Source: Halorubrum persicum (GTDB taxonomy: Archaea; Halobacteriota; Halobacteria; Halobacteriales; Haloferacaceae). Taken from it: 41,740 bases of DNA. The stretch spans positions 1-41,740 of the forward strand of contig NZ_NHOA01000039.1 of the NCBI RefSeq assembly GCF_002727125.1, in the 5' to 3' direction. The position numbers were made by a program, and so were the translations under genes. Under the pieces are notes generated by a model. That model made no database searches. It worked only from the letters and a program-made list of their open reading frames with translations, and was not told the origin of the DNA. Positions within the stretch are counted from its first letter, which is position 1. Every line of letters begins with the position of its first letter. Shown here one piece after another: positions 2,844 to 5,346 of this stretch.

Positions 2844-3353
2844 ATGTGTCGGTTTAAGCACGACGGGACCGTTGAACGGATCGTGAATTATCGGTCTCGT
2901 CTCGGCAGCGAATCGAACGGACGTTTCGATCTCCGGGAGTCCGACGAGGGGTCCGCGTCGACGGTGGTCCGGGAGGGAACGACACTCGCGGTGGGCCGCG
3001 ACATCGCGGTCTCACCGGCGGTCGCCGCCGAGACCCTCCGCGACACGCGCCGGTGGCCTGACTGGGGACCGGCGATCGACGCCGTGGAGAGCGACGACCG
3101 GTACGTGACTCGCGGGACGACCGGACGCGTTCGCGTCGGGGGCGCGTGGCTCCCGTTCCGGGTGACCGCGTGCAACGGCCGACGCTGGGACTGGCGCGTC
3201 GCCGGGATCCCGGCGACCGGGCATCGCGTCGACAGCTACGCCGGTGACGCGGACCGCAGCCGCGTCGTCGTCGAGGTGCCGGCGGTCGCGGCCTGGTACG
3301 TCCCCGTCTGCCGGCGCGCGCTCGACCGGTTCGCGGCGCTGGTCGAGTCGTGA
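2844..3353 (+). CDS. SRPBCC (START/polyketide-cyclase-like) family protein
   Basis: The protein is up to 169 residues from ATG 2844. The conserved fold begins near residue 50 (REGTTLAVGRDIAVSPAVAA) with a helix and the typical WPDWGPAIDAVES segment, then alternating beta strands (TRGTTGRVRVGGAWLPFRV) and a long C-terminal helix (PVCRRALDRFAALV). This is the helix-grip layout of ligand-binding SRPBCC proteins, which carry hydrophobic ligands or catalyse cyclisation. A start at GTG 2883 is also possible, because a box A-like TTTAAG at 2852 would place the transcript start close to it; the first 13 residues are unlike the rest. The gene is convergent with the VOC gene, whose stop is 10 nt away. 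The ligand is unknown. Confidence 0.75.
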   Translation: MCRFKHDGTVERIVNYRSRLGSESNGRFDLRESDEGSASTVVREGTTLAVGRDIAVSPAVAAETLRDTRRWPDWGPAIDAVESDDRYVTRGTTGRVRVGGAWLPFRVTACNGRRWDWRVAGIPATGHRVDSYAGDADRSRVVVEVPAVAAWYVPVCRRALDRFAALVES

Positions 3354-3363
3354 CCGGGACCGC

Positions 3364-3846
3364 TCAGCTCTCGTACCCCTCCTCGAACGGGTCGATCACG
3401 CTGCTGCCGGGCTCCGCCTCGTCGCGGGTGAACCCCGGCCCCGCCGTCGCCAGTTCGAAGACGAGCCCGTCGGGGTCGCTGAAGTAGATGCTCTTGAAGT
3501 AGGTCCGGTCTTTCACCTCGGAGACGCGCACGTCCTGCTCGCGGAGGTGCGCCTGCCACTCGCGGAGCGTCTCCTCGTCCTCGACGCCGAACGCGAAGTG
3601 GTGGCTCGCTCCCGGACCGGGCGCCCCCTGCGAGTTCGGATACTCGAAGTAGGTGACGTTCGTCCCCGGCTCGCCCTTCGGCGTCGGCGAGAAGTAGTAG
3701 TGGGGAGTCCCCGGATCGTCGTAGTTCTGCGTCCGCTTGACCGTGTGCCAGCCGAGCGCGTCCTCGTAGAACGCGACGGTCTCGTCCATGTCGGTGCAGA
3801 TGTTCGTCACGTGGTGCAGTCCGGTCGTCGGCGGAGCGTCGGTCAT
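3364..3846 (-). CDS. VOC-superfamily ring-cleaving dioxygenase/glyoxalase-like protein
   Basis: This 160-residue protein has the paired beta-alpha-beta-beta-beta repeats of vicinal oxygen chelate enzymes. The opening GLHHVTNICTDMDETVAFYE supplies a likely metal histidine (H12), SHHFAFGVED a second (H82/H83), and YFSDPDGLVFELAT the C-terminal glutamate (E131). The sequence style (TPHYYFSPTPKGEPGT) is closest to the extradiol dioxygenase/PcpA/MhqO-like branch rather than glyoxalase I. It follows the DoxX gene on the same strand, 80 nt downstream, and both are divergent from an HxlR regulator. In bacteria this trio handles quinones or electrophiles; that function is inferred here. The substrate is unproven. 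Confidence 0.85.
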   Translation of the reverse strand: MTDAPPTTGLHHVTNICTDMDETVAFYEDALGWHTVKRTQNYDDPGTPHYYFSPTPKGEPGTNVTYFEYPNSQGAPGPGASHHFAFGVEDEETLREWQAHLREQDVRVSEVKDRTYFKSIYFSDPDGLVFELATAGPGFTRDEAEPGSSVIDPFEEGYES

Positions 3847-3926
3847 GTCCGTGTGATCGGTTCTCGTGAAGAAAGTTAGTGGTACGGGTGACCGAGAGCG
3901 AGTCGGACTCCGTCAGCGCCGCCGGA

Positions 3927-4376
3927 TCAGAACAGCCCGAGGCCCACCGCGTACGGCCACGCGCTGCCGCCGACCGCCAGCAGCGCGAGCGCCGCGCCCG
4001 CGCCGTAGACGTTCTTGAGGAACCCCGTCATCTCGCTCTGCTTCTCCTCCGGGTCGTCGATCGACCAGAAGTCGTGCATCGTCACGGCGGAGACCAGCAG
4101 GAACGCCGCGAGCGCGCCGGCCGCGAGGACGGGGAACGCGCCCGCCGCGACCGCGGCCCCGCCGAGCACCAAGACGACCCCGGAGGCGACCACCGAGAAG
4201 CGCGGCGCCGGGAGCCCCTTGAACTCGGCGTAGCCGGCCATGGTGTCGACGTCCATGAAGTGGTTCAACCCCATGAACGCGAGCGTGGCGCCGAACAGGA
4301 TCCGACCGAGCAGGAACAGTTCACCCGCGAGCGGGGCGTCGAACTGGAGCGGTATCGTCGTGAATGCAGCTAACAT
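3927..4376 (-). CDS. DoxX family membrane protein
   Basis: The 149-residue protein has four hydrophobic segments (about residues 15-37, 60-80, 83-102 and 123-148) and the family hallmarks LGRILFGATLAFMGLNHFMD near the start and AAFLLVSAVTMHDFWSIDD before the last helix. DoxX proteins are small four-helix membrane proteins connected with quinone chemistry, thiosulfate oxidation or oxidative stress; MhqP of Bacillus is one member. The gene heads a likely two-gene unit with the VOC gene. A TATA element (TAAATA on this strand, 4404-4411) sits 28-35 nt upstream, so the mRNA is probably leaderless and the CGTATACG palindrome lies between TATA and the start. Confidence 0.88.
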   Translation of the reverse strand: MLAAFTTIPLQFDAPLAGELFLLGRILFGATLAFMGLNHFMDVDTMAGYAEFKGLPAPRFSVVASGVVLVLGGAAVAAGAFPVLAAGALAAFLLVSAVTMHDFWSIDDPEEKQSEMTGFLKNVYGAGAALALLAVGGSAWPYAVGLGLF

Positions 4377-4445
4377 CGTGTAACTACGTATACGGACGTA
4401 ACCTATTTATCGCTTCCCGGACAAGAGTGTAAGCAGGTAACCTCG
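4377..4445. promoter_or_regulatory. Shared divergent promoter and candidate HxlR operator
   Basis: The 69-bp gap separates doxX (minus) and the HxlR gene (plus). One AT element, CTATTTATC around 4403-4411, reads as a box A on both strands: about 30 nt from the doxX start and about 36-42 nt from the HxlR start. Between this element and doxX lies the perfect 8-bp palindrome CGTATACG (4387-4394), and GTAAC occurs three times (4380-4384, 4398-4402, 4437-4441). This suggests repression of doxX and autoregulation by one protein. Confidence 0.55.
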
Positions 4446-4835
4446 ATGTCATCGCAGGAACTCGCCGGCTCCGAACCGGCGGAGACGACCGACGCAGAGC
4501 CCGACACGGACGCGTCTTCCGCCCCGGACACGCCGTGTCCCGTCATCGACTCGCTCGAACAGATCGGCTCGCGCTGGCGGCTCGTCGTGCTCCACGAGCT
4601 GTTGAACGGCGAGTTGCGGTTCAACGAGCTCAAGCGCGAGACCGACGCCAACGCCCGGACGCTCTCGCGCGTGCTCGACGACCTCCAGGAGACCGGCTTC
4701 GTCGACCGCCGGTTGGAGGAGGATTCGCCGGTGGCGACGTACTACAGCCTCACGCCGAAGGGCGAGTCGCTGGCGCCGGTGTTCGAGGAGATCGACGAGT
4801 GGGCCCACGAGTGGCTCGCCGAGTGCAGCGGGTGA
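4446..4835 (+). CDS. HxlR family winged-helix transcriptional regulator
   Basis: The 129-residue protein has a disordered acidic N-terminus of 28 residues, then the HxlR domain: CPVIDSLEQIGSRWRLVVLH (31-50), the recognition region RFNELKRETDANARTLSRVL (58-77) and the wing around VDRRLEEDSPVATYYSLTPKG. HxlR proteins bind DNA as dimers; YodB/CatR/HypR members sense quinones and hypochlorite through a conserved cysteine preceding helix 1. Here C31 occupies that place and C127 near the C-terminus could be the disulfide partner. It is divergent from the doxX-VOC pair, fitting local regulation. Binding of its own promoter and redox sensing are inferences. Confidence 0.92.
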   Translation: MSSQELAGSEPAETTDAEPDTDASSAPDTPCPVIDSLEQIGSRWRLVVLHELLNGELRFNELKRETDANARTLSRVLDDLQETGFVDRRLEEDSPVATYYSLTPKGESLAPVFEEIDEWAHEWLAECSG

Positions 4836-4884: not shown

Positions 4885-5346
4885 GTGTACGCCGGACTGA
4901 AGAACACCCCGTGTTGCCTGTGCGGCCGCGACGACACCCACACCCGGATCGCGGTGCCGCCCCGGGCGATCCGGCTGCTGAAGAACGGCGGGCCGATCTC
5001 GTGGCGGGACGTTGTGGGGACGGTGACGCTCCGCTTCTGCGCCGACGACTGGGACCTCGTGAGCGACCTGGCGATCGAGATGGACACCCACCCGCTTTCG
5101 CGGTGCAACGCGGCGCACGTCTCGCTCGACCTCCGCGAGGACCACGAGGCGCTGCTGTCGGCGACGAAGGAGGAGACGGACCAGACCGAACTGGAGGCGC
5201 GGCTCGAACGCGAGGCGGAGTCGACGCTCGACGCCGTCGACGACCCCTACACGGAGGCGCGCGACGTGGTCGAGGCGATCGTGGTGCTGCGCGCGCTGGA
5301 GGAGCTCGACGTGCGAGACCCGCCGGGCGACCCGGTCGCGCCCTGA
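4885..5346 (+). CDS. Conserved haloarchaeal protein with cysteine cluster
   Basis: The 153-residue protein begins at GTG 4885 (MYAGLKNTPCCLCGRDDTHT). C10/C11, C13 and C52 (in RFCADDW) could form a zinc site; the rest is mostly helical, with a charged helix (about 90-140) ending in VVLRALEEL. There is no enzymatic signature I recognise. The start is supported by the absence of any in-frame ATG nearby and by the gap of 49 nt after the HxlR gene, so it could be co-transcribed with it. The gene is convergent with acylphosphatase, the stops being 11 nt apart. Function is unknown; it looks like a family restricted to haloarchaea. Confidence 0.75.
   Translation: MYAGLKNTPCCLCGRDDTHTRIAVPPRAIRLLKNGGPISWRDVVGTVTLRFCADDWDLVSDLAIEMDTHPLSRCNAAHVSLDLREDHEALLSATKEETDQTELEARLEREAESTLDAVDDPYTEARDVVEAIVVLRALEELDVRDPPGDPVAP

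Follow-up and report, generated by a model that had tools for sequence, protein, structure and literature searches.

The doxX-VOC gene pair of Halorubrum persicum and the hxlR gene facing it probably form a haloarchaeal electrophile- and quinone-detoxification module resembling the YodB, CatR and QsrR systems, with a ring-cleaving dioxygenase of half the usual size. The locus lies in a 41,740-nucleotide stretch of DNA, referred to here as the window (Table 1). The three open reading frames are found at the positions and on the strands given in the original prediction, with hxlR divergent from the pair, and each exceeds its curated Pfam cut-off, with E-values of 5.2e-22 for HxlR, 5.6e-10 for DoxX and 5.9e-20 for Glyoxalase/VOC. 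The intergenic region between hxlR and doxX is 69 bp long, and doxX and the VOC gene are separated by 80 bp. The idea of an archaeal quinone-stress module is partly supported, by the gene identities, their linkage and Cys31 of the regulator, but has to be revised in that the VOC protein is half-size, that Cys127 of the regulator is lineage-specific, and that the precedent is catDE and QsrR rather than MhqO.

Table 1. Genes and predicted regulatory elements of the locus, in window coordinates.
Feature	Position	Strand	Description
VOC gene	3364..3846	(-)	160 aa; ORF call and Pfam
doxX	3927..4376	(-)	149 aa; leads the divergent operon; ORF call and Pfam
Operator 1 (predicted)	4369..4385		GCTAAC-ATCGT-GTAACT, imperfect inverted repeat; covers the doxX start codon (4374-4376)
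Central TATA-like element	4402..4411		CCTATTTATC; between both operators, read from sequence
Operator 2 (predicted)	4429..4441		GTAAGCAGGTAAC; paired half-sites of the GTTACC/GGTAAC type, immediately ahead of the hxlR ATG
hxlR	4446..4835	(+)	HxlR/DUF24 winged-helix regulator, 129 aa; ORF call and Pfam

Two further genes lie beside the locus. An SRPBCC gene (Polyketide_cyc2; window positions 2844-3353, plus strand) adjoins the VOC gene, and in several VOC-less genomes (six loci) an SRPBCC gene is located directly upstream of hxlR on the same strand; the SRPBCC protein may be a further member of the module. Downstream of hxlR, an open reading frame at 4885-5346 (plus strand) encodes a protein with a CCLC motif and without a Pfam match, and such a frame is found again close to HxlR in some 15 of 70 loci.

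The regulator carries the HxlR domain PF01638, at 77.9 bits against a gathering score of 20.8, and MarR models stay under their cut-offs on this protein. Among solved structures in the PDB, its best relative is the quinone sensor YodB, followed by HypR. The two cysteines named in the original prediction, C31 and C127, are both present exactly as claimed. C31 is positioned at the start of helix 1, aligns with the N-terminal cysteine of YodB, and is shared by all 97 HxlR orthologues that could be read (locus L120 is left out of the cysteine counts), a degree of conservation on which the prediction had been made to depend. Yet an equivalent of C31 is also present in YodB, in HypR and in the only other HxlR protein of the same genome; the residue is thus typical of the family, and it speaks for a thiol sensor without proving one and is by itself no specific evidence.

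C127 is lineage-specific, occurring in 37 of the 58 VOC-linked HxlR orthologues and in 8 of the 39 others; in most orthologues that lack it, residue 110 or 118 is a cysteine. Counted at any of these positions, a second cysteine is present in all 58 VOC-linked orthologues and in 36 of the 38 other orthologues that could be read. In YodB, quinones alkylate Cys6, which also enters into a disulfide with Cys101' of the partner subunit (PMC8063818); in an extended alignment, C127 is located one residue off the Cys101 position. HxlR is a candidate thiol sensor.

A second cysteine towards the C-terminus, which nearly every orthologue has, would also fit a disulfide switch in a thiol-stress module with a non-quinone trigger, in which HxlR would sense hypochlorite, disulfide stress or aldehydes while VOC and DoxX handle the damage products. 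Such a trigger is further suggested by the rank of HypR among the solved relatives, by the HxlR protein of B. subtilis, which is a formaldehyde sensor (PMC7835342), and by the hypochlorite-type stress that haloarchaea face and answer with thiol switches (PMC9426492). However, YodB outscores HypR, and the partner genes seen among haloarchaea (DoxX, flavin reductase, ring-cleaving dioxygenase, and an MhqD-like or dienelactone hydrolase) make up a set for aromatic rings, not for peroxides or aldehydes. We regard a non-quinone trigger as unlikely.

The best PDB relative of VOC is MhqO (3oaj, 1.7e-32), followed by 1zsw and then by the hydroquinone dioxygenase PcpA, while a profile search places MhqO and 1zsw level. 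The finding that the best solved relatives of the two proteins are YodB and MhqO, with PcpA third, counts in favour of a quinone-detoxification module. MhqO dioxygenases comprise two VOC domains in about 310-335 residues, whereas the VOC protein of the window is a single domain of 160 residues that corresponds to modules 1 and 4 of two-domain MhqO. Specifically, in comparisons with two-domain MhqO homologues, its N-terminal half fits module 1 (z of 25.8 and 21.0) and its C-terminal half module 4 (33.4 and 28.9), with module 2 the next best (10.6 and 4.6). Its description as an MhqO-type enzyme is therefore right about the closest solved relative, but the protein is a half-size, single-domain one and no full MhqO.

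The putative metal ligands of VOC, H12, H83 and E131, are invariant in 62 of 62 orthologues. Residues H11, T14, H82, R114 and Y121 are likewise invariant in all 62, and their equivalents in PcpA are, we assume, second-sphere active-site residues. The ligands of MhqO are His11, His218 and Glu266 (PMC12673573), which align with H12, H83 and E131 of VOC, so that the His-His-Glu triad is complete in the shorter protein. Judged from these residues, VOC is probably a ring-cleaving dioxygenase with a 2-His-1-Glu site, in which the metal would be Fe(II). An AlphaFold2 model of VOC is mediocre (pLDDT of 72, TM score to 3oaj of 0.50) and too weak for an analysis of module packing, and hence only the ranking of structural matches was used; 3oaj ranks first, and the single-domain homogentisate 1,2-dioxygenase 9u42 ranks third.

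In a tree built from shared columns (FastTree only, with an assumed root), VOC is positioned outside the two-domain clade, a placement more in keeping with a single-domain relative that has survived than with a recent deletion. The origin of VOC as a haloarchaeal deletion derivative of MhqO is disfavoured, as the two-domain proteins, bacterial members among them, cluster without VOC (support 0.84, root assumed).

VOC folds also include glyoxalase I and Fos enzymes, and both give weak matches to the protein. VOC could accordingly work as a glyoxalase or thiol transferase that uses a low-molecular-weight thiol against methylglyoxal or some other electrophile, its likeness to MhqO being only family background; E68, an extra invariant glutamate that is missing from haloarchaeal MhqO paralogues, is compatible with such a role. 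But the scores are far under both cut-offs (24.2 against 120 bits for the glyoxalase I model TIGR00068, and 40.4 against 171 bits for FosB), MhqO stands about 80 bits above Fos among the solved structures, and full-length MhqO takes the place of VOC at the same locus in other genera, all of which makes this assignment very improbable.

The third protein, a membrane protein, is assigned to the DoxX family by PF07681, at 40.1 bits against a gathering score of 23.6. Its MHDFW and FLKN motifs are invariant in module-linked DoxX relatives, and a search for solved structures returned no meaningful relative of DoxX. CatD is a DoxX-family protein as well.

The regulator and the enzyme differ widely in distribution: of 292 haloarchaeal genomes searched, 281 have an HxlR orthologue (70 of 76 genera), and VOC is present, at about 75% identity or more, in 62 of the 292 (13 of 76 genera). 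Judged by VOC, the nearest named genomes belong to Halorubrum (97% in H. amylolyticum); the 63 relatives confirmed among named genomes are haloarchaeal or environmental-archaeal by title. The neighbourhood comparison that the original prediction had called for came out in its favour. VOC is located on the divergent side of HxlR in 58 of 58 fetched loci with a located HxlR, accompanied on that side by DoxX in 47 and by flavin reductase in 27, so the linkage is not due to chance, with the reservation that the loci are related by descent and do not count as independent trials. The four other VOC loci comprise one at a contig end (L032), two with no HxlR (L044 and L064), and one with a distant HxlR (L029/L128), for which a longer stretch places HxlR, with an adjoining DoxX, at a distance of 4.3 kb. 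DoxX was the only one of these genes to turn up downstream of HxlR, a side that served as the control, and it did so in five loci. In one lineage (five loci), another VOC protein, of a third type that shares about 39% identity with the window VOC, lies between HxlR and the single-domain VOC.

Among 39 sampled VOC-less genomes, 18 have quinone-toolkit genes divergent from HxlR, namely full-length MhqO with an MhqD-like hydrolase (6), DoxX alone (5), flavin reductase alone (3), and other single or mixed genes (4). Together with the divergent linkage in all 58 loci, these neighbours argue for a quinone-detoxification module. The other 21 of the 39 have no toolkit gene divergent from HxlR (two of them have DoxX 1.7 kb downstream), hinting that the conserved role of HxlR may be wider or different. 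In held-out, independently annotated plasmids of two Haladaptatus species and Halococcus, HxlR faces DoxX, a ring-cleaving dioxygenase and a dienelactone hydrolase in that order, and in a Natrononativus plasmid it faces DoxX and a ring-cleaving dioxygenase; the helix-turn-helix genes of these plasmids encode HxlR proteins with the conserved cysteine.

Dienelactone hydrolases that come next in several loci raise the possibility of a catabolic operon, in which HxlR would be a local regulator that switches on the cleavage of aromatic rings taken up from the environment as food (a hydroquinone, gentisate, homogentisate or lignin fragment), with no detoxification involved. The close solved relatives PcpA and 9u42 are catabolic hydroquinone and homogentisate dioxygenases, and mhqPOD of Paenibacillus has been tied to lignin-fragment degradation (PMC12673573). 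In the window, however, the operon consists of DoxX and VOC only, with no downstream catabolic enzymes; moreover, a near-universal HxlR that keeps its N-terminal cysteine in every orthologue resembles a stress function more than a niche food pathway. A catabolic role thus appears quite unlikely, and we retain detoxification as the favoured function.

A Gibbs search of 50 upstream regions recovered GGTATC-ATCGT-GTTACC at 20.5 bits, against 9.2 and 9.5 bits in shuffled controls, and the divergent promoters share the conserved inverted repeat GGTAWC-N5-GTTACC. Predicted operator 1 has the top motif score in the window and is the only exact match to GSTAWC-N5-GTWACY in the 3.58 Mb of the genome. 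Predicted operator 2 is a 0-mismatch match to a 13-mer pattern, and it recurs beside the start of hxlR in most loci that have the VOC gene. In 5 of 5 held-out plasmid loci, the operator model places its top site in the HxlR intergenic region (scores 26-31), which, along with the single exact genome match, counts in favour of the proposed module. Haloferax mediterranei has a second operator-type site ahead of a separate doxX. The TATA-like element is kept as CTATTTATC or CTATATATC in relatives, and possibly serves both divergent promoters. The placement of the sites over the start regions suggests that HxlR would act as a repressor, and the site before hxlR suggests autoregulation.

An earlier motif candidate, the 13-mer GTWAVCWGGTWAC, gave 14 matches at one mismatch, hardly more than the 11 of a reversed control, and the inverted-repeat motif took its place. 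Five loci have a further inverted repeat, GGTTCG-N4-CGAACC, upstream of hxlR and beside its BRE/TATA, which is retained even without operator 2.

Elsewhere in the same genome, contig C6 (L067:661-2369) encodes a full-length MhqO of 332 residues and an MhqD-like hydrolase (Abhydrolase_2); this pair is followed by a DUF2249-cupin gene, and a DoxX gene lies 1.4 kb away. Contig C48 (L002:1324-1938) encodes a second single-domain VOC of 205-230 residues followed by an alpha/beta-hydrolase frame, and related single-domain VOC genes occur in plasmid clusters of Haloferax and Halococcus. Both loci are without the operator motif, and one-mismatch matches to it in the genome number 52 against 27 for a control pattern; therefore, we claim no further HxlR targets.

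The original prediction had drawn on Bacillus, and the precedent applies insofar as YodB and MhqO are the best relatives of HxlR and VOC. However, MhqO is under the control of MhqR, a MarR-type repressor without a thiol switch (PMC6798810), while the HxlR/DUF24-type repressors YodB and CatR act on catDE (PMC6212828) and QsrR controls catE, catE2, azoR1, frp and yodC (PMC6798810), making catDE and QsrR the better analogues. The YodB/CatR-catDE system of B. subtilis likewise combines an HxlR/DUF24 regulator bearing an N-terminal sensing cysteine with a two-gene operon that includes ring-cleaving CatE (PMC6212828, PMC6798810), but CatE is a full-size catechol 2,3-dioxygenase, whereas the haloarchaeal VOC is half-size and its regulator gene is adjacent and divergent. 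The YodB box, TACT-N7-AGTA (PMC8063818), also differs from the haloarchaeal GGTAWC-N5-GTTACC repeat, and we therefore class HxlR as YodB-like, not as a YodB. In Staphylococcus aureus, QsrR is similarly an HxlR-type quinone sensor over the ring-cleavage dioxygenases catE and catE2 (PMC6798810), but its regulon has multiple targets, whereas the exact haloarchaeal operator occurs once in its own genome.

The MhqR-mhqNOP/mhqED system resembles the locus in that MhqO is nearest to the window VOC among solved structures and that MhqD-like hydrolases stand beside full MhqO in several haloarchaeal loci with the same HxlR; it differs in its MarR-type regulator, and the window VOC is single-domain with no mhqD alongside. 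PcpA, a 2,6-dichlorohydroquinone 1,2-dioxygenase, shares the HHxT, HH, R-x6-Y and E motifs, which align with H11/H12/T14, H82/H83, R114/Y121 and E131, but is a two-domain protein of 320 residues that serves pollutant catabolism. OxsR, MsvR and SurR are archaeal transcription factors with thiol switches (PMC9426492), but they belong to the TrmB and ArsR families and not to HxlR. Bacterial factors of the YodB, QsrR and HypR kind are reportedly not readily found in archaea (PMC9426492), and a literature search in a limited collection found no paper on a haloarchaeal HxlR/DoxX/VOC module.

In the mechanism that we propose, an HxlR dimer in unstressed cells would bind the GGTAWC/GTTACC inverted repeats and cover the start regions of doxX-voc and hxlR, keeping both repressed. 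A quinone or similar electrophile would modify Cys31 at the start of helix 1 or else bring about a disulfide between Cys31 and a further cysteine located in the C-terminal helix. The dimer would then leave the DNA and the operon would be expressed, whereupon single-domain VOC may open the ring of a hydroquinone or catechol, with DoxX as its putative membrane partner. Counting against this proposal are the 21 VOC-less genomes without toolkit genes, the family-typical nature of Cys31, the shifting second cysteine, the non-YodB operator and the mediocre model of VOC.

Known archaeal thiol-switch regulators were limited to MsvR, SurR and OxsR (PMC9426492). More tentatively, haloarchaea might possess a near-universal YodB-type quinone thiol sensor which governs, across no fewer than 13 genera, a single-domain hydroquinone dioxygenase preserving the state before the MhqO/PcpA domain duplication, a proposition that we consider doubtful. 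The cysteine-bearing HxlR of 281 of 292 haloarchaea, with its operator-like repeat and, in many of these genomes, quinone-toolkit neighbours, is a concrete and readily testable candidate, and a half-size VOC with all metal ligands would be a natural minimal MhqO/PcpA enzyme.
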